From a virus, in the IMG/VR virus record IMGVR_UViG_3300028883_001006, positions 1 through 43,832 of that record: a DNA stretch of 43,832 nucleotides; one strand, given 5' to 3'. Each line of letters begins with the position of its first letter. Positions within the stretch are counted from its first letter, which is position 1. Positions 23,906 to 43,074 of this stretch are shown here, one piece after another. The notes under the pieces are model-generated. The model ran no database searches, was not told the origin of the DNA, and worked only from the letters and a program-made list of their open reading frames with translations. A program made the translations under genes and the position numbers.

Positions 23906-25381
23906 TTAGCGCCTCGACCTTCTTTTCGCTGGTTCATAGACAGCCGGTTTCGCCGGTCCCTCTCCGTCGTCGCCGATAACCATTCGCACCGAGCTTTCCA
24001 GAGCGTCCACTGCGTCAACATACTTCGCAACCGGCCAATTCTCCAGCTCGCGGATTAGTTCCTCGTCTCCCGAACCCATGTTGCGGGGGAATAGAATAGT
24101 CCCGTCATTTATAAGGTGCGCCATCGACTCTATCCGGTCTTCCTTTTTCGTTGTGTTCGGCTTGCCTTCGATAGGCGTATAATTGCGGTTCTTGCGGAAA
24201 TGGTTCCGGAAATTAGTTACAAAAAGGGTCATTGCGCCGTTATCCTCGACTCTCATAATTTCATGAGGGTAAGGTTTCGCATGTCTTTGCAGCGCTATTT
24301 CCGGCAGTTCCTCGTGGTGAATAATCTCCGCCGTAGTCTTCAAAACGTATATCTTGCCCGTCTCTTTATGATGCCCGATTGTAACCACTGCGCTAAGGTC
24401 GCTTTCCCGAGACTTCCCGATAGCCGCATCACACCACGCGCTTATCTCAAGCTGATTATACGGCGGATGCTGTTCATAATAATGGATGTTCCGGAATACC
24501 TGTGTCTCCGCGGCAACGGGCTGTAGTAAATATTGCGCGGAGAAAAAAGCAGGCGCCATACTTCCGCGAAGCATGGAAAGGTGATCCTCTGAAAGGACTT
24601 CCGGTATCCACGGCAACCCCCGATCGTTTATCGCAGGCTGAACCATTAAGTTCTCGCCCTCAACATACTTCGGAGTTCCATCAGGATTCTTTTTCGAAAG
24701 CTCATAGACATGATAATCGTCATGATGCCAGAACGTCCCCAGACCTGCCCGGGCGCCGTCCGGATTCAGAATGGGAATATACTCATCCATGCGCTCTTTC
24801 TTCTTCTCGCGCTCGGCGGGGCTTTCTTTGTCCGGACGTCCGACAACGTCGTCATCGATTATATAATCATAATGCGATCCGGTCAGATTCGACCCAACGC
24901 CCCGGGCTTCCAAACTCGGATCGGAACTTCCAACGGTCCTTTGAGGAAGAACAAACTCATTCTCATTCCAAACCGGTGCGCCTGTTCGCCAGTCTCCATA
25001 CAATGCCTCAAACAGCGGATTGTGTTCGACGTGCCAACGGATTTCGCGGGCAAGTTTGGTCGCAACATTATCAGTAAGCGAAATAAGGAGGATCTTCGCA
25101 TTGGGTTCGTTCAACAGTATCCAGAGGGGGAGAGCTTTCGAGGCAAGAGTCGATTTGAAAGTGCCGCGAGGAATGTATAACCGAACATTGTCCTGCGTCC
25201 GGCGTTCCTTGAGTATCGACTGAAGCATATCGCAGACTGGCCGATGAATACGAGGGACAAGCTTATCATAGCCGAGAACGAACCGCGCAAAATAAAATAG
25301 GTTCCGCTTCCCAGCGGAACGGATTAATGCAAGCTGGTGCTTGTCGTCGAGGTGCGATATGTCGATGTCGATATTAGGCAT
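23906..25381 (-). CDS. Terminase large subunit
   Basis: The product is 491 aa, the packaging motor ATPase/nuclease. The N-terminal ATPase part has the variant Walker A YIPRGTFKSTLAS (near residue 69) and Walker B DYIIDDDVVGR, with an adenine-side motif NLFYFARFVLGYDK. The C-terminal RNase-H-like nuclease has WCDAAIGKSRESDLSAVV and a closing DAVDALESSVRM, which carry catalytic acidic residues. It overlaps the end of the small subunit by 8 nt. Packaging mode (cos or pac) cannot be told from this window. Confidence 0.9.
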   Translation of the reverse strand: MPNIDIDISHLDDKHQLALIRSAGKRNLFYFARFVLGYDKLVPRIHRPVCDMLQSILKERRTQDNVRLYIPRGTFKSTLASKALPLWILLNEPNAKILLISLTDNVATKLAREIRWHVEHNPLFEALYGDWRTGAPVWNENEFVLPQRTVGSSDPSLEARGVGSNLTGSHYDYIIDDDVVGRPDKESPAEREKKKERMDEYIPILNPDGARAGLGTFWHHDDYHVYELSKKNPDGTPKYVEGENLMVQPAINDRGLPWIPEVLSEDHLSMLRGSMAPAFFSAQYLLQPVAAETQVFRNIHYYEQHPPYNQLEISAWCDAAIGKSRESDLSAVVTIGHHKETGKIYVLKTTAEIIHHEELPEIALQRHAKPYPHEIMRVEDNGAMTLFVTNFRNHFRKNRNYTPIEGKPNTTKKEDRIESMAHLINDGTILFPRNMGSGDEELIRELENWPVAKYVDAVDALESSVRMVIGDDGEGPAKPAVYEPAKRRSRR

Positions 25382-25859
25382 TAGTTTCCGCCTTGGCTTC
25401 TGCTTTAGCCAAATCCATCTTAATGGTTTTTAGAGCTTCCCTGACCAATGTCTCCGCTTCATCGTCCGTCAAATCGCTAACCGAGATATTCACCGAACCT
25501 ACAGCGCCAGAATGCTGAACCTTCGCCTCAATAGCCCGTTTAGCGTATTTCTCAGGATATAGTTTTTCCAGAAGCCACGCCGCCGCGCGCCACTCGTCGT
25601 TGGAAGCTTTGTCGATACGTTCAATGTAGGTTATTTCGCGGGCAAGTTTCGCCTTCTCGATGGTCTCGTAGAACCTGCGAAATATCGCGTCCTTCTTCGG
25701 ATAATTGTTCTCCGCCGCCTCTTTCCCCCGCTTAAGCCAGCTAAACCAAGAACCCTTCGACACACTGAGAACCGTATAGGTATCCTCAGCAGTCATACCG
25801 AAAGCGATGTAGTTCTTCGCTTTCTCAATTAGTTCGTCTGTTAGCTTTAGCTTGGCCAT
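25374..25859 (-). CDS. Terminase small subunit-like protein
   Basis: The product is 161 aa from MAKLKLTDELIEKAKNYI at 25859 (GAGAAGAAGGCTA ahead); a longer frame begins inside ibrB and is rejected. The N-terminus is an HTH-like region (AFGMTAEDTYTVLSVSKGSW), then a helix pair and a C-terminal acidic tail. Such proteins recognise the packaging site. It lies directly upstream of the large subunit. Confidence 0.8.
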   Translation of the reverse strand: MAKLKLTDELIEKAKNYIAFGMTAEDTYTVLSVSKGSWFSWLKRGKEAAENNYPKKDAIFRRFYETIEKAKLAREITYIERIDKASNDEWRAAAWLLEKLYPEKYAKRAIEAKVQHSGAVGSVNISVSDLTDDEAETLVREALKTIKMDLAKAEAKAETNA

Positions 25860-26502
25860 TAGCCTTCTTCTCAAGCAATATTTGTTTGCGGGTTTTCCAT
25901 GCCCGCCGATAATCGTGATCTTCAAAAAGTTTCGAAAACCCCGTAATATGCTTTAGGCGAAGAAGCTCTTCCGGCTCCATGTATAACTCGTTGCAGATGT
26001 CCTCGTCCGACCAGCCGTTGTCCAGCATAGAGAAAACAAGATGTGACATACCACCGACAGAGTGTTTCCCGCGAGCCCTGTTATGACGAACCGTCGAAGC
26101 CATTCGGTCATTGATGTCTTTGTCGATAACCACAACCGGAAGATATCCGTTGCAACTGTCGCGAATGTCCGGATTAGATTTCATGACATGGGATCGGTGA
26201 AACCCGTCAACGATGATGTATTTGTCCTGGTCAGCATCGTAGATAGTAACTACCGGCTGGGTGTAGCCGTCGTGTTTGATCGAGGTGTAAAGCAGTCCCA
26301 TCTCCGTCGAAGCAACGCTGTTCGGGTTGTAATCGTTCGCCTGCACCTGATCCACCGGTATCCAGCGAACCCTGTCCACAGGTTGCGTCCCCTGCGGAGA
26401 AAGCTCGTGCAGAAGCGATTTAATCTTCTCAATCGTCCGAACCTTGTCTTCCGCCGCCGAGACGGCCTCTCGAATCTTTTGGAATATATCTTTCGTATCC
26501 AT
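25825..26502 (-). CDS. ibrB: IbrB-like ParB-domain protein
   Basis: The product is 225 aa. The ParB/sulfiredoxin-like domain contains KYIIVDGFHRSHVMK (residues about 94-108) and continues with RARGKHSVGGMSHLVFSMLD and a C-terminal LRLKHITGFSKLFEDHDYRR, a pattern I recognise from IbrB proteins. IbrB is found beside IbrA in prophages and regulates host genes in E. coli; its molecular activity is not established. AAGGAACA precedes ATG 26502, and the gene overlaps ibrA by 74 nt, so the pair is a unit. It directly precedes the terminase genes. Confidence 0.82.
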   Translation of the reverse strand: MDTKDIFQKIREAVSAAEDKVRTIEKIKSLLHELSPQGTQPVDRVRWIPVDQVQANDYNPNSVASTEMGLLYTSIKHDGYTQPVVTIYDADQDKYIIVDGFHRSHVMKSNPDIRDSCNGYLPVVVIDKDINDRMASTVRHNRARGKHSVGGMSHLVFSMLDNGWSDEDICNELYMEPEELLRLKHITGFSKLFEDHDYRRAWKTRKQILLEKKANGQAKANRRTN

Positions 26503-27628
26503 TGTTCCTTAACTCCACTTTGTCGCCTCGCGCCCATTTCCGGAAGAAATGAGCCTCTGGCGAGCGTTCCCAGTTTGATAGTTTCGTGAATTCAAAGTCG
26601 TTTGCCAGAATCGAGTTCACTTGCGTCTTGTAAAGCTGGTCCGGCTCGTTCATTAATCGATACCGTTTGTCCAGCCTCGCGAACTCCTTGCGGAAAGACG
26701 CCCTTAGCTTCGGGTCCAGGATCAGATTTTCGAGAAGATGATCGCGGTATTCCTTCCAGTCTTTGAACATCGGAGGAAGCTCGTAAACGTAATAGTTCTC
26801 CTTGTTCATCTGATTCGCCGTGTTTAAACCGGCAAGCCTCGTCGATATCCGGTTCCATGTCTTCGGCTCGATCTCCTGAAGGAAAAAGAGCGTGTTAATC
26901 GCTGTTTCGTGGTGAACGTTCGATACTCGCATATTATTGGTCGGTATCCCATGCTGATACATGTAGTCATACAGTTTGCAATACGGCCAGCCGTGTTCGT
27001 GAATCGCTTTCCAAACGTCCTTGAAGCTCCAATCGTATATCGGATAGAAGGAATAATGTTCGCGGTTCTTCGCAAACTTCTTGCCCCAGGTGATGTGCTT
27101 ATATGTCGCGCTCGCCGTCAGAGCCAGAAACCGTGTCGGAGACTCTTCCGTTCGAACTCCGGCCAGATAGCATACTTTTTGACCCTGGAACTCGACCTTC
27201 AGAAAATTGCCGAACATCTCCTTGAATCGTTCCGTGCCGTAGCGATTAACCTTGATGCTGTTTGGTTCCTTTGGGCGTATCCAATGTTCCTTTTTCGACT
27301 CGTCCCAGCAATGGAGCCAGGGTTCGATAGGAGAGGTCGCATTGAATAGGCGAAAAGGCATCTGAAGCCACAAAGGTTCAACGTCCGGGTGGGTCATAAT
27401 CTCGCGAATGGTCGTGATAACCGAATCCCACTCCGCTTCCTGATCCAGAAACAGAACCTTCAGAGGTAAACGGTTCTTCTCGCGGGCGACCTTCAGAGCA
27501 AGGTTGAAAATAACCGTGCTGTCCTTGCCACCCGATACACTCGCAATTACCACGGGGAATTCGTCGAAGATATATCGAATCCGATCCAGAGCCGCCTCGA
27601 GAACATTCTGTTTAAGGAATATTCTCAT
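26429..27628 (-). CDS. ibrA: IbrA-like PAPS-reductase family protein
   Basis: The product is 399 aa. The N-terminal PP-loop ATPase domain of the PAPS reductase superfamily shows VIASVSGGKDSTVIF (PP-loop SGGKDS, residues 32-37). The DUF3440-type continuation includes YLAGVRTEESPTRF, YPIYDWSFKDVWKAI and YKTQVNSILANDFEF. IbrA-type proteins occur with IbrB and resemble, at the N-terminus, DndC of DNA phosphorothioation. No classical ECGLH reductase cysteine signature is seen, so an adenylation or thiolation role rather than sulfate reduction is inferred. It overlaps the upstream glycosyltransferase by ATGA. Confidence 0.85.
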   Translation of the reverse strand: MRIFLKQNVLEAALDRIRYIFDEFPVVIASVSGGKDSTVIFNLALKVAREKNRLPLKVLFLDQEAEWDSVITTIREIMTHPDVEPLWLQMPFRLFNATSPIEPWLHCWDESKKEHWIRPKEPNSIKVNRYGTERFKEMFGNFLKVEFQGQKVCYLAGVRTEESPTRFLALTASATYKHITWGKKFAKNREHYSFYPIYDWSFKDVWKAIHEHGWPYCKLYDYMYQHGIPTNNMRVSNVHHETAINTLFFLQEIEPKTWNRISTRLAGLNTANQMNKENYYVYELPPMFKDWKEYRDHLLENLILDPKLRASFRKEFARLDKRYRLMNEPDQLYKTQVNSILANDFEFTKLSNWERSPEAHFFRKWARGDKVELRNNGYERYIPKDSRGRLGGGRQGSDD

Positions 27629-28155
27629 GGCATGAAAGTAGGTGAACTGCGGTCTTTCGCTCGAGGACCAAGTAATGAAGGTCCAACAACATGCTGGACC
27701 AACGAAGGAACATGAATAAAGTAGCCCAGCTTCTTTGAAATCAGATAATCTCTTATCACAAGATCAAATCCGGTTGGGTGCTCTTTTAACCTGTGCCAGT
27801 TGGCCGCATATGTCGAAATCCTTTTACCGTGTCCGGAGGGAAGCCAGAATCCAACGTTGTAGATCCACGACGAGGGAGGCATTGAGTATATGCCGGGCGG
27901 CATCTTCTTCCGAGAGAAAAACTGAACAAACCACTCTGAACGTAGTTTCTCCGTTTTCTCAAGAAAGCCGTTTGTCAACCTGGCATCATCTTCGAAAAAG
28001 AAGCCTCCACAATCAATCGCCTCAAGTGCCCTTCGGAATGTCGTCATAGGGTAACCCTGACATTCAACTACAACCGCATTAGGGAAAACAGACAGAAGGG
28101 CATTTAGCGTTCCTTCTCTTTTCCCTGGAACATGTTGGATTACTGCTTCAGGCAT
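27625..28155 (-). CDS. Glycosyltransferase-like protein
   Basis: The product is 176 aa. A DxD-like acidic motif FFFEDDARLTNGF near residue 52, KPPGIY-like substrate loop (KMPPGIYSMPPSSWI) and the C-terminal HVPSLVQHVVGPSLLGPRAK match small family-25-like GT-A-fold glycosyltransferases found in phages. The sugar and acceptor are unknown; candidates are phage DNA or a virion or host surface molecule. It overlaps the ParB-like gene by 8 nt and ibrA by 4 nt, a tight cassette. Confidence 0.65.
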   Translation of the reverse strand: MPEAVIQHVPGKREGTLNALLSVFPNAVVVECQGYPMTTFRRALEAIDCGGFFFEDDARLTNGFLEKTEKLRSEWFVQFFSRKKMPPGIYSMPPSSWIYNVGFWLPSGHGKRISTYAANWHRLKEHPTGFDLVIRDYLISKKLGYFIHVPSLVQHVVGPSLLGPRAKDRSSPTFMP

Positions 28156-28840
28156 CGATGTCTCTTTTCTGAAGATAAAAGGACTCGCCGCAGGAAGGAC
28201 AAGTTACTTCAACAAGACCCGATTCATCGTCGGAAAATTGTCCCATTAACTTTTCATTGGCTTTAGCCATATCCTCCGCAGAGAAGTCAACATTGGCCTG
28301 TGTAGGGTCAAGGTTCGGGGAAAAGTCGATATCCATGTTCGGTATCTCCCAATCCTCGAAACCTGGAATTCTTAGTTCGCCGTCGAACTTGAATTCCCCC
28401 AATATCTTGTTCAGAGCAAACTCGTCCCACGAGGCAAGCTCGCCGGCACGGTTATCGACTATCGCCCGGCGCAAAGCCTTCGTGTCGTCGTCGTTTACCC
28501 AGTGAACAAGCGCCTTCTCCCAGCCCAACTGCTTCATAGCCTCAAATCGGCCGTTGCCGATTATGATACGACCAGTCGAGCGCTGGACTACAAGCGGAGA
28601 ATGCTGTTCGAATTCCTCGAGGGAGGCCTTGATCGTGTCGATGTTATGTTCGTCGTGAAGGCGAAGATTCGCGGGGTCGGGGATCAAACGGTCAAGTTCA
28701 ACCATCTCGATGTCCCAAATCTCCTCCACGCCGGTTCCAGAATTCTGTTCGGTAGGATTCGCAGATTTCTTATTACGGGGTTTAGTTATCAATGAGCCGT
28801 TTCCGGACTTGTCCGGAGAGGTTTTCTTCCGAGGAGCCAT
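28148..28840 (-). CDS. ParB-like nuclease-domain protein with C-terminal Cys motif
   Basis: The product is 230 aa. A basic N-terminal tail precedes the ParB/Srx-like core (ELDRLIPDPANLRLHDEHNI, then STGRIIIGNGRFEAMKQLGW). After the core it has a HxxW-containing helical section and ends with a zinc-ribbon-like VTCPSCGESFYLQKR. The family binds or cuts DNA or uses NTPs. It opens the cassette with the glycosyltransferase-like gene, ibrA and ibrB. AAGGGAAATATGTA precedes the ATG. Confidence 0.82.
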   Translation of the reverse strand: MAPRKKTSPDKSGNGSLITKPRNKKSANPTEQNSGTGVEEIWDIEMVELDRLIPDPANLRLHDEHNIDTIKASLEEFEQHSPLVVQRSTGRIIIGNGRFEAMKQLGWEKALVHWVNDDDTKALRRAIVDNRAGELASWDEFALNKILGEFKFDGELRIPGFEDWEIPNMDIDFSPNLDPTQANVDFSAEDMAKANEKLMGQFSDDESGLVEVTCPSCGESFYLQKRDIDA

Positions 28841-29332: not shown

Positions 29333-29408
29333 TGGTGGCAGGGGCCGGACTCGAACCGGCGACCTCGAGGTTATGAGTCTCGCGAGCTACCAACTGCTCC
29401 ACCCTGCT
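29333..29408 (-). tRNA. tRNA-Met (CAT), initiator-like, phage-encoded
   Basis: A 76-nt cloverleaf with encoded CCA. The acceptor is 5'-AGCAGGG / CCCTGCC-3', with position 1 an A opposite C72 (unpaired end). D arm GAGC/GCTC carries the A11:U24 pair typical of initiators. The anticodon loop CTCATAA reads CAT. T arm GCCGG-TTCGAGT-CCGGC. The anticodon stem is CGAGA/CCTCG, with an A31-C39 mismatch instead of the GGG:CCC of normal initiators. It is closest in layout to bacterial initiator tRNA yet altered. A protein-like reading through it on the plus strand is an artefact. Confidence 0.88.
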
Positions 29409-30975: not shown

Positions 30976-31530
30976 CTACCTCCTGTCCTTCGGTTCGATC
31001 CACTCCATACCAATTGCCGCGAAATAATCCGTCTCCTCCGGCGTCGGTATCAATACCAAATCCTCCTGATCACCGAAAAGCCCGGGGCTCTTCTCCACGC
31101 GAAACAACTGACCATCCGCACATCGCAACCCCTTCTTCGGCAGTCGATTCATTATCCGTTGGTTAAATTCCGAACTTCCCGTCCGTATCGCGAGGATCAC
31201 TCCCCACTGCGCCGGCGGAAGAACTACGAACACATCGAACTTGATCCATTGCCCTTCGGCTTCCGCGAACTTCTCGCGTTGGAAGAAACGCGGCCCGTTG
31301 CAACAGTCCTGAGTCAGCCTCCAGAAACCGTCTCTATCCATAGCATCTCGCATTGAATAGAACTTGACCTCGTTCTCCGGCGACGGCTGGCATACCAACT
31401 CGATATCCTTAACCTCGTCCTTCTCCCGCCGAATCGATCCGGCAATGACACATTTCCCAGGTTCACAAAACGGGGCGAATTTCGCCTTCGCTTCTTCGGC
31501 CCAGTTTCGGCCCACTTCCAGCCCAATCAT
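30976..31530 (-). CDS. Family-X (Pol beta-like) nucleotidyltransferase
   Basis: The product is 184 aa. The nucleotidyltransferase palm pattern is visible: VIAGSIRREKDEVKDIELVC (Gly-Ser at the start, catalytic acids D and E in KDIEL) and a third acid in IKFDVFVVL. The thumb-like GVILAIRTGSSEFNQRIMNR matches the Pol X pattern that reads the template strand. It has no N-terminal 8-kDa lyase domain, like viral minimal Pol X. It may be a repair, gap-filling or template-independent polymerase. AAGGAGGATAT precedes ATG 31530. Confidence 0.8.
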   Translation of the reverse strand: MIGLEVGRNWAEEAKAKFAPFCEPGKCVIAGSIRREKDEVKDIELVCQPSPENEVKFYSMRDAMDRDGFWRLTQDCCNGPRFFQREKFAEAEGQWIKFDVFVVLPPAQWGVILAIRTGSSEFNQRIMNRLPKKGLRCADGQLFRVEKSPGLFGDQEDLVLIPTPEETDYFAAIGMEWIEPKDRR

Positions 31531-37331: not shown

Positions 37332-38111
37332 TTATCCCATCTCGAACAGTGTTAGCTGTTCGGTTTCTATAATTCGCGGGACACCGGTTTCTGGCGTCTC
37401 CGTGGGTTGGTTGGCATTGTTCTTTCGTGCTTCCCAGCTATCGACAATATTCCGCTGAGCCTGCGCGCATTGTTCGGGCGTCATTTCGCGCATCATTCCG
37501 CCGAGGAAAGTTCGACGGGTCTCGAACCCCCATTCGACAGTGCATTTGAGGGAGTCGCCGTTCAGGGCATACCCATTGACATTGAAGAAAAGCAGATTGA
37601 GCGCGGTCATCTTCGTGCAGATAGGGTCGAGATCAATTCCTGTGTAGTGGTTGTTCGGGCGTTCGATGATCATAGACACCATAAGCCTTCCGCTTCCGCA
37701 TGCCGGATCCAGAACAGCCCCCTCTTCTTGAGGGTCATAGGGCTGGTCGCCGAGATTGAGCTGTGTCATTAGGTCGCAAATGTGTTGTGGCGTGAAAAAC
37801 TGTCCGAGGGCTTGCTGGCGGGACTTGCTGTGCATAGCAAACTCCTCGTAAACCTTGCCGATTGCATCGTGTTGGATTTCCTGAGTTGCGGCCATGAGCA
37901 GATGAAAAGCTTCTGCGAAATAATCGGCTTCTCTATTTCCGATCGGGGAGTTGTTCCGGTATCGTCCGATCGTGCGTATATAATTCTCTTCCTGCTGAGT
38001 CAACGCATAGATCATAAGGTCAACCCAGTCTCCGAAGACGTTGCTGTATCCTCGTTCCTCGATCATCTCGAGGTTTCTAATAATTTGATTTATGTGTTCT
38101 GACGTTTTCAT
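37332..38111 (-). CDS. N6-adenine methylase-like protein lacking the catalytic NPPY motif
   Basis: The product is 259 aa of the HsdM / N6-methylase type. Seen: ALGQFFTPQHICDLM (about 101-115) and SAM-binding motif I VLDPACGSGRLM (133-144), then YTGIDLDPICTKM and NGDSLKCTVEWGFE. In active N6-methylases the last region would be followed by (N/D)PP(Y/F); here no such motif follows. Many short prophage versions share this, so the protein may bind DNA or SAM without methylating, or use another motif. No clear ribosome site was seen before ATG 38111. Confidence 0.75.
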   Translation of the reverse strand: MKTSEHINQIIRNLEMIEERGYSNVFGDWVDLMIYALTQQEENYIRTIGRYRNNSPIGNREADYFAEAFHLLMAATQEIQHDAIGKVYEEFAMHSKSRQQALGQFFTPQHICDLMTQLNLGDQPYDPQEEGAVLDPACGSGRLMVSMIIERPNNHYTGIDLDPICTKMTALNLLFFNVNGYALNGDSLKCTVEWGFETRRTFLGGMMREMTPEQCAQAQRNIVDSWEARKNNANQPTETPETGVPRIIETEQLTLFEMG

Positions 38112-42064: not shown

Positions 42065-42481
42065 ATGAATTCACTTTGGGCGAAAAATATTTATTTTCTC
42101 CGCATGGCAACTGGGTGGTTGGATAGCAATGCTTCCTATTCACAAAAAGAGTTTGCGGATCTTCTGGGCATTTCAAATCGCACAGTCATTAACTGGGAAA
42201 GTGGTCACCTACCCACCGCCCCAAAGTTGGACTGGCTCTCTACTTTCTTCTCGAATAAGTTTGGGGTCGAGATAACTGCAGATGATCTCATCCATTTCGA
42301 CCTCCGCGACCGAATTCAAATACGTCCTGTGCCCAAAGAATTTGCGGATATGCCGCCAGAGAAACGGGCAAAACTCTCAAAGCTCGAAGGCCTTTTCTTC
42401 CGAGACGGCCGACGTCTTACTGAGGCTCAGATAGACCTTATTTTGAGTATGTTAGATGAATTTTTAGAAAAGGAGAAATAG
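42065..42481 (+). CDS. XRE-family phage repressor (CI-like)
   Basis: The product is 138 aa. HTH_XRE region at residues about 26-55: SYSQKEFADLLGISNRTVIN then WESGHLPTAPKLDWLSTFF. The C-terminal half is helical (MPPEKRAKLSKLEG, LTEAQIDLILSMLDEFLEKE) and probably mediates dimerisation; there is no S24 peptidase domain, so induction by RecA cleavage is not expected. AGGGGATACTT precedes the ATG. It is the only rightward regulator and sits opposite the early promoter. Confidence 0.82.
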   Translation: MNSLWAKNIYFLRMATGWLDSNASYSQKEFADLLGISNRTVINWESGHLPTAPKLDWLSTFFSNKFGVEITADDLIHFDLRDRIQIRPVPKEFADMPPEKRAKLSKLEGLFFRDGRRLTEAQIDLILSMLDEFLEKEK

Positions 42482-43074
42482 TGGGGCGGGTTTGTTTTGG
42501 AGTTGCTGTAATCTTCCTTTTACCATCTCTAATGTTTGCCAACTTCTTCTTAGCTCTCGAAGCGAGTTTAAACAACTCAAATGCTTTGATGTCTCATTAT
42601 CCTATGGAGGATAAATCAGCCAACACAGTAAGTTACTCTGGTGGAGTTCAGATTGGCATTACTGAAGTTGCTTTTCCTAACTTGAGCTGTTCAACAGGAT
42701 TTAAACTGCTCTCTAAAGGTTGGCATTGGGAGGAACCAGGGGGTGTTGATATCGAGTTAAAATATTTTGAAATTCCTTTAAGAGCTAAATACTCCTACCA
42801 TATTGGAACTGACCTTTTTGGTTCTGTGTCATTTGGTCCATATTACGCCCGATTACTTAGCGAAGGATTCTTTGCTGATAATTATCGGAAGGATGATTTT
42901 GGTGTTCATGCAGAAATAGGCCTGGATTTTGCGTTTCCATCTCATCGTTATGGTTTAGGTATTGAGGGTGGCTACTCTTTGGGTTTGATGTCTCTGATTC
43001 CCGAAGACGATGCTGACATTTACAACAGAAATCTCTTTGCCAGCCTATTAATCTATTTCCATAATTCAGATTGA
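42481..43074 (+). CDS. PorT-like outer-membrane beta-barrel, lysogenic conversion candidate
   Basis: The product is 197 aa with a GTG start preceded by AAGGAGAAATA and overlapping the repressor stop by one base. A signal peptide (VAVIFLLPSLMFANF) is followed by alternating beta strands with aromatic ends: VSYSGGVQIGITEVAF, KYFEIPLRAKYSYHIGTDLF, YGLGIEGGYSLGLMSLIPED and LFASLLIYFHNSD, the PorT/OmpW-like small-barrel pattern. Co-transcribed with the repressor, it would be made in the lysogen and could alter receptor or surface properties, for example superinfection exclusion. The sequence looks more AT-rich than the surrounding phage genes. Confidence 0.7.
   Translation: MGRVCFGVAVIFLLPSLMFANFFLALEASLNNSNALMSHYPMEDKSANTVSYSGGVQIGITEVAFPNLSCSTGFKLLSKGWHWEEPGGVDIELKYFEIPLRAKYSYHIGTDLFGSVSFGPYYARLLSEGFFADNYRKDDFGVHAEIGLDFAFPSHRYGLGIEGGYSLGLMSLIPEDDADIYNRNLFASLLIYFHNSD

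Follow-up and report, generated by a model that had tools for sequence, protein, structure and literature searches.

In this work we analysed a stretch of viral DNA of 43,832 nucleotides (nt), the IMG/VR virus record IMGVR_UViG_3300028883_001006 (hereafter, the window), in which a cassette of four overlapping genes on the minus strand precedes the genes of the terminase. The gene products are a ParB-like protein (ParB1), a glycosyltransferase-like protein (GT), a PP-loop protein of the IbrA type and a ParB protein of the IbrB type. The original prediction had described this arrangement, and it was confirmed exactly as drawn there, from 28840 down to 25825. The genes of the cassette and the two that follow it are:

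28148..28840, minus strand: ParB1, 230 amino acids, first gene of the cassette; ParB-like N-terminal domain and C-terminal CPSC half zinc-ribbon motif.
27625..28155, minus strand: GT, 176 amino acids; predicted glycosyltransferase of GT-A fold, whose residues 55-57 (E-D-D) form a motif of metal-binding type.
26429..27628, minus strand: IbrA, 399 amino acids; PP-loop ATPase of the PAPS-reductase superfamily, with DUF3440.
25825..26502, minus strand: IbrB, 225 amino acids; ParB/Srx-type nucleotide-binding domain (residues ~44-145) and KorB-like helix-turn-helix (HTH; ~133-190).
25374..25859, minus strand: TerS, terminase small subunit (phrog_4102, 7e-23).
23906..25381, minus strand: TerL, terminase large subunit (phrog_38, 4e-72), directly downstream of the cassette.

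From ParB1 through GT and IbrA to IbrB, successive genes overlap by 8, 4 and 74 nt. The terS gene starts inside the end of ibrB (ATG at 25859; overlap of 35 nt) and in turn overlaps terL by 8 nt. Past the cassette the order on the minus strand is TerS, TerL, portal and MuF-type genes. A promoter scan gave no more matches than chance.

Related viral loci were collected by searches seeded with GT, IbrA and IbrB (for IbrB, the best 80 of at least 597 IMG/VR loci), and their genes were identified by means of purpose-built profiles. Redundancy was removed on the basis of shared 4-residue words of IbrB; the loci counted here are distinct, not phylogenetically independent. IbrA and/or IbrB were found in 18 of the 20 non-redundant loci seeded by GT, a linkage that is far above chance. 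When the seed was IbrA or IbrB (64 non-redundant loci), ParB1 was present in 61, a GT in 34, TerL in 49 and F3, a small domain described below, in 52; counterparts of all four window genes occurred together in 32 of them, any of three GT profiles being counted. The 35 IbrB-seeded loci with full flanks contained IbrA (35), ParB1 (33), F3 (30), TerL (26), any GT (19), and either a GT or a tailoring enzyme (29). At 70 loci, 303 matches to cassette genes lay on one strand and 0 on the other, with ParB1 before IbrA-IbrB in 48 loci and after them in 17. A check set beforehand, namely whether the four genes are kept together in relatives, was thus answered in the affirmative. The notion of a four-gene operon stood only in part. 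The linkage is real, but elsewhere the full locus has more than four parts, the window having a reduced set, and the IbrA/IbrB pair is also found away from the terminase with an SNF2-type helicase, in Streptococcus phage CHPC1062 (L184:2089-5078) and Flavobacterium phage FCL-2 (L186:4145-7009). The two helicases are homologous, of about 400 amino acids, with 31% identity to each other.

The window TerL matched the profile TerLb (2e-67) and not TerLa, and most relatives have TerLa; the cassette is common to phages with unrelated TerL families, as judged by mutually non-matching profiles. TerL lay 327-3570 nt past IbrB in all 46 non-redundant IbrB-seeded loci that had an identified TerL and over 2.5 kb of available sequence downstream. 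This proximity, together with the overlap of ibrB and terS in the window, might indicate a packaging accessory: the site of packaging would be bound or marked by ParB1 and IbrB, the action of the enzymes would be confined to it, and TerS/TerL would be aided in the choice of DNA. We consider such a role decidedly improbable: one cassette serves unrelated TerS/TerL families, the IbrAB pair exists away from the terminase with the SNF2 helicase, and co-expression of late genes accounts for the adjacency equally well.

One GT-IbrA fusion was seen among the loci (L125, 2845-4785) and was left unused. A 98%-identical locus (L188, 2204-2992) has AAAA in place of AAA and keeps two overlapping genes; judging from the two sequences, an indel error or else a very recent change is the probable cause of the fusion.

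The enzymes that accompany the IbrA/IbrB pair in relatives belong to several families. Members of one of them (MT5) have about 200 amino acids, with DPPW and DPCCGxG motifs, and their nearest relatives are DNA amino-methyltransferases (amino-MTases), namely 5hfj (1.6e-9), CcrM (2.6e-7) and MboIIA (5.8e-6); these MT5 proteins are short, and where a target-recognition domain might fit is not obvious. GNAT partners match curated acetyltransferase families. A dioxygenase-like family of 170 amino acids carries an invariant HxD...H triad. A GT was present in 10 of the 11 loci with this dioxygenase-like gene, as compared to 24 of 53 otherwise (p=0.007), while GNAT was present in none of the 11 (p=0.05), in both cases with the loci treated as independent and without correction for six tests. 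This pairing fits a hydroxylation followed by a glycosylation in the versions of the cassette that have both enzymes. In two further loci (L009:7884-8975 and L013:502-1598) GT adjoins the dioxygenase-like gene and no IbrA or IbrB is on the contig; the L009 contig has flanks of 8 kb (upstream) and 1.9 kb (downstream), and that of L013 has only about 0.5 kb upstream. The GT slot itself is variable, since three distinct GT profiles were found at the same place in the set: besides GT there are GTb, which profile comparison relates to it (97% probability), and GTc, which has a DDD motif and is unrelated (4%). F3, a domain of about 95 residues with the motifs W.FAKTMP..PHEYT.R ... YWTMG ... INRA, recurs beside IbrA (L054:3390-4208 and about 50 other loci, e.g., L031:6587-6880). 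It is fused to class-I MTases in more than 10 loci and to GNAT once; it matched no Pfam family, and its similarity to PU.1-type ETS domains stayed under the threshold. As assigned from their sequences, the partner classes (DNA amino-MTase-like, GNAT, HxD...H dioxygenase-like and GT) are classes known to modify DNA bases. Because such enzymes and DNA-binding-type ParB proteins (see below) share one strand and adjoin terminases that are unrelated, we favour on balance, and with reserve, the interpretation that the locus is a cassette for the modification of phage DNA (of its bases) with an IbrA/IbrB/ParB1 core.

IbrA gave matches above cut-off with PAPS_reduct (3.9e-17) and DUF3440 (2e-8) and matched phrog_2302 (7e-87), and IbrB matched phrog_2159 (8e-74). 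Thus, a protein with PAPS_reduct and DUF3440 adjoins an IbrB-type ParB protein through the 74-nt overlap, and the identities originally proposed for this pair were borne out. IbrB is strongly conserved (mean column identity of 55%), with DGFHR and RHNRARG invariant. Its structural model (predicted local distance difference test, pLDDT, of 85) was superposed on ParB (7o0n) over the nucleotide-binding domain, with Z 12.2 and a root-mean-square deviation (rmsd) of 2.0 for 92 aligned residues, and on the DNA-binding domain of KorB (1r71) over the HTH, with Z 9.3 and rmsd 1.1 for 57 aligned residues. Comparison with whole KorB (8qa9) gave Z 13.8 and rmsd 10.2, the latter fitting a shifted domain arrangement. 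According to the model, IbrB combines a ParB nucleotide-binding fold with an HTH, which is an architecture of DNA-binding type. ParB1 matched phrog_620 (2.3e-34) and, under the cut-off, ParB_N (4e-4). Among 45 sequences, C214 and C217 are 98% conserved and G95, R98 and N130 at least 96%; the C-terminal CxxC is usually CPxC, so that the CPSC motif noticed earlier in the window protein is a real feature. Since ParB motifs are retained in ParB1, and IbrB matches the ParB and KorB folds, a role of IbrB and ParB1 in DNA targeting is plausible.

The same data have to be read also in terms of gene regulation, with IbrA and IbrB as transcriptional co-activators, IbrB being a KorB-like regulator of late phage or host genes, and GT and the other enzymes as passengers. 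Structurally, IbrB is nearest to KorB, a transcriptional repressor, and its HTH fits well. The record of phage CHPC1062 labels the pair as a co-activator of prophage gene expression, and cro-like genes are nearby. In E. coli, the homologues on the chromosome, ybdNM, are subject to regulation and their function is unknown (PMC9068703). The prophage IbrA/IbrB and the chromosomal YbdN/YbdM of this bacterium consist, like the pair described here, of a PAPS_reduct and DUF3440 protein and a ParB protein in adjacent genes; they are described as co-activators or as unknown, and the accessible portions of the sources mention no GT or tailoring enzymes, whereas here the pair stands with ParB1 and GT in an operon with the terminase. 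Such a regulatory function seems to us rather unlikely, in that it leaves unexplained both the invariant PP-loop of IbrA and its repeated co-inheritance, in one operon, with GT, DNA-MTase-like, GNAT and HxD...H proteins.

The alignment of 42 non-redundant IbrA sequences showed that the PP-loop SGGKDS (residues 32-37) is invariant, as are D62, Q63, E64 and E66, and that there is no conserved cysteine (64% in the best column). The PAPS-reductase motif ECGxH was found in none of 37 non-redundant IbrA proteins, nor in the window protein, and CxxC in 1 of the 37. The solved relatives closest to IbrA in a PDB profile search were CysD and FAD synthase, both of which are adenylyltransferases. Because IbrA has neither conserved cysteines nor ECGxH, and its nearest solved relatives are adenylyltransferases, it may be predicted from sequence to activate its substrate with ATP (adenylation), and to be neither a PAPS reductase nor a sulphur carrier.

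These features bear on the thio change that had been put forward at first, with DndC as the point of reference. In that case the cassette would carry out a DndC-like phosphorothioation, or make a thiolated base, with IbrA as the sulphur carrier. Models of DndC do match the PP-loop domain of IbrA (PADLOC, 4e-11; NCBIfam TIGR03183, 1.4e-8, under the curated cut-off), and this match is expected because the two belong to one superfamily, to the whole of which the SGGxDS motif of DndC is common. The Dnd/Ssp phosphorothioation systems (DndC, DndB) likewise join a PP-loop protein of the PAPS-reductase superfamily to a ParB-superfamily protein. However, DndC has a cysteine-bound 4Fe-4S centre and a cysteine dyad (PMC10853773), whereas IbrA is without conserved cysteines, and IbrB resembles KorB/ParB with an HTH. 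With PADLOC run on the four proteins of the cassette, and Pfam on other window proteins, no DndB, DndD, DndE or Ssp partner turned up. Thio-modification was rejected as the leading mechanism on account of the missing cysteines, and we regard it as very improbable.

The window GT gave no match in Pfam, PHROGs, NCBIfam or PADLOC, and thus none with the curated GT25 and GT13 family models of Pfam, PHROG and NCBIfam; a relative reaches phrog_854, "glucosyltransferase", at 3e-10. A search of the GT profile against the sequences of solved structures gave nothing, and a comparison of folds was needed. The AlphaFold2 model (pLDDT 90.6) matched many GT-A enzymes over 140-169 residues, with Z from 13.8 down to about 10, among which were POMGNT1 (5ggi; Z 13.8, rmsd 2.8, 169 aligned residues), GnT-I (1foa; Z 13.5) and COLGALT1 (9evj; Z 12.2). 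The model firmly assigns the protein to the GT-A fold. What had been called a DxD glycosyltransferase-like protein therefore keeps its class, while the motif is actually E55-D56-D57. In a full-length alignment of 19 sequences E55 and D57 are invariant, and so are D131, H155, R169 and S171. In GnT-I the corresponding role belongs to an EDD motif. Among viral structures, the best match was a protein of Microbacterium phage Hendrix (A0A2U8UUF1, E 4.9e-14); gp154 of Hendrix is a sequence match of GT, and IbrA is encoded four genes downstream of it.

A GT-A enzyme beside morphogenesis genes might instead decorate capsid or tail proteins, and be a chance neighbour of IbrAB. The viral Foldseek matches of GT include gp87 (E 1.1e-8) of Mycobacterium phage Ardmore, a cluster-F phage. 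Glycosylation of virions is described for the mycobacteriophages Che8, Corndog and Myrna (PMC11256854, PMC12363180); for their GTs, phage-encoded as in our case, the accessible portions of those papers describe no linkage to IbrAB or the terminase. Here, on the contrary, GT is tied to IbrA and/or IbrB in nearly all the GT-seeded loci, three distinct GT profiles share one place in the cassette with partners that resemble DNA methylases, and GT precedes TerS/TerL whatever the terminase family. Glycosylation of virion proteins is for these reasons an unlikely function of the locus.

Returning to the DNA-modification cassette, what we observed is its gene content, the folds predicted for its proteins, the conservation of the set and where it lies; from these we infer DNA as the substrate, an order of steps, an adenylation chemistry and a masking purpose. 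The window would hold, in its four genes, a modular cassette for phage DNA modification in reduced form. In it, IbrB would bind DNA in a nucleotide-dependent manner, as a ParB/KorB-like protein, and recruit the machinery there, and ParB1 would be a second DNA-targeting or adaptor protein. IbrA, as PP-loop enzyme, would adenylate the substrate with ATP, and GT would attach a sugar where the substrate is activated or hydroxylated. In relatives the final group would vary with the interchangeable enzymes (amino-MTase-like, GNAT, HxD...H dioxygenase-like and other GTs). The product may mask late-made phage DNA just ahead of its packaging by TerS/TerL. Chemical modification of phage DNA before packaging, as originally suggested, thus receives strong contextual support from a gene set that is kept together and from partners of base-modifying classes, its thio branch being disfavoured. 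More tentatively, and with the odds in our opinion somewhat on the other side, IbrA, IbrB and ParB1 might be the core of an undescribed system, in which a PP-loop protein without conserved cysteines activates DNA by means of ATP, a ParB-type clamp loads, GT, amino-MTase, GNAT or dioxygenase finish the reaction, and F3 is a shared adaptor.

Several observations weigh against DNA modification. The exact reduced set of the window occurs in no other locus of the 64, and a profile check found F3 and all recognised tailoring enzymes absent beside the window cassette. IbrA and IbrB are also found without terminase or GT (CHPC1062, FCL-2). Sandt and colleagues reportedly described E. coli IbrAB as a co-activator of prophage genes, and the resemblance of IbrB to KorB calls for caution. 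The dioxygenase-like family is assigned by its triad, profile searches having given no significant match. Cluster-F mycobacteriophages glycosylate virion proteins, and Ardmore gp87 is a structural neighbour of GT. Finally, in the literature that we found, no modified nucleoside was measured for any phage bearing the cassette.

Other features of the window are the following:

29333-29408, minus strand: tRNA-Met (CAT), upstream of the cassette, in the interval separating ParB1 from the RusA/primase region.
30976-31530, minus strand: protein of 184 amino acids with a DNA polymerase beta thumb domain (7e-10), without PHROG match.
37332-38111, minus strand: a separate N6_Mtase-type DNA methylase (Pfam, 5.6e-14), some 9 kb away from the cassette and adjoining a RecD2-like helicase.
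42481-43074, plus strand, opposite to the cassette: outer-membrane beta-barrel protein (Pfam, 4.6e-7), near the end of the record.

The last of these genes suggests a Gram-negative host. Scans of genome contigs did not inform on host range, giving 0 relatives with the GT query and one Bacteroidota contig, from a metagenome-assembled genome, with the IbrA query, by a pattern method that catches close relatives only.

Versions of the cassette are also present in cultivated phages, most fully in Hendrix, with the following genes:

Mycobacterium phage Phlyer: ParB, gp2, gp3, IbrA, IbrB, TerL.
Arthrobacter phage Laroye: ParB, IbrA, IbrB, MTase, TerS, TerL.
Microbacterium phage Hendrix, right end: GT, glucosyltransferase, F3-MTase, GNAT, IbrA.
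Microbacterium phage Hendrix, left end: IbrB, two ParB1, HTH protein, TerL.
Bacillus phage 022DV001: ParB, IbrA, MTase, IbrB.

Clusters for the hypermodification of phage DNA (T4 hydroxymethylcytosine glucosylation, Mom, thymidine hypermodification, CmoX carboxymethylcytosine) also combine phage GT, MTase, GNAT-type or dioxygenase proteins. The cassette family likewise has an operon set of base-modifying enzyme genes, of which the window itself retains, among the variable ones, only GT. It differs from those clusters in its core, made of a PP-loop protein and ParB/KorB-like proteins, and the window proteins that were scanned include no enzymes dedicated to the nucleotide pool. ParBc proteins recur with phage DNA-hypermodification enzymes (2025, PMC12783734). 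The DNA of Serratia phage eta, which has a ParB homologue and was reported as hypermodified, proved unmodified by high-performance liquid chromatography (PMC3918226), the ParB homologue being the only shared feature looked at. Our search of the literature, which did not extend to Iyer et al. 2013, found no paper on this gene neighbourhood or on the combination of its proteins with a modification of DNA or its bases. Phage DNA-modification clusters are already known; an IbrA/IbrB/ParB1 core with swappable slots would be new.

IbrA-type phage genes are labelled "phosphoadenosine phosphosulfate reductase" by PHROGs and in the records of isolates. Phage genes with this name have been read as auxiliary genes of sulphur metabolism (PMC10434257, for its own phage gene, not necessarily of the IbrA type). 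For the IbrA type this reading is doubtful, because the protein is without the reductase motif and is encoded in an enzyme cassette beside the terminase. If the cassette modifies DNA, a common, modular and possibly counter-defence system would be added to the known list, and the question is directly testable, since the cultivated phages Phlyer, Laroye, Hendrix and 022DV001 carry versions of it. Should IbrA, IbrB and ParB1 indeed be the core of an undescribed system, the outcome would be novel DNA bases forming a family, in uncultured phages numbering in the hundreds and in several isolates grown in laboratories.

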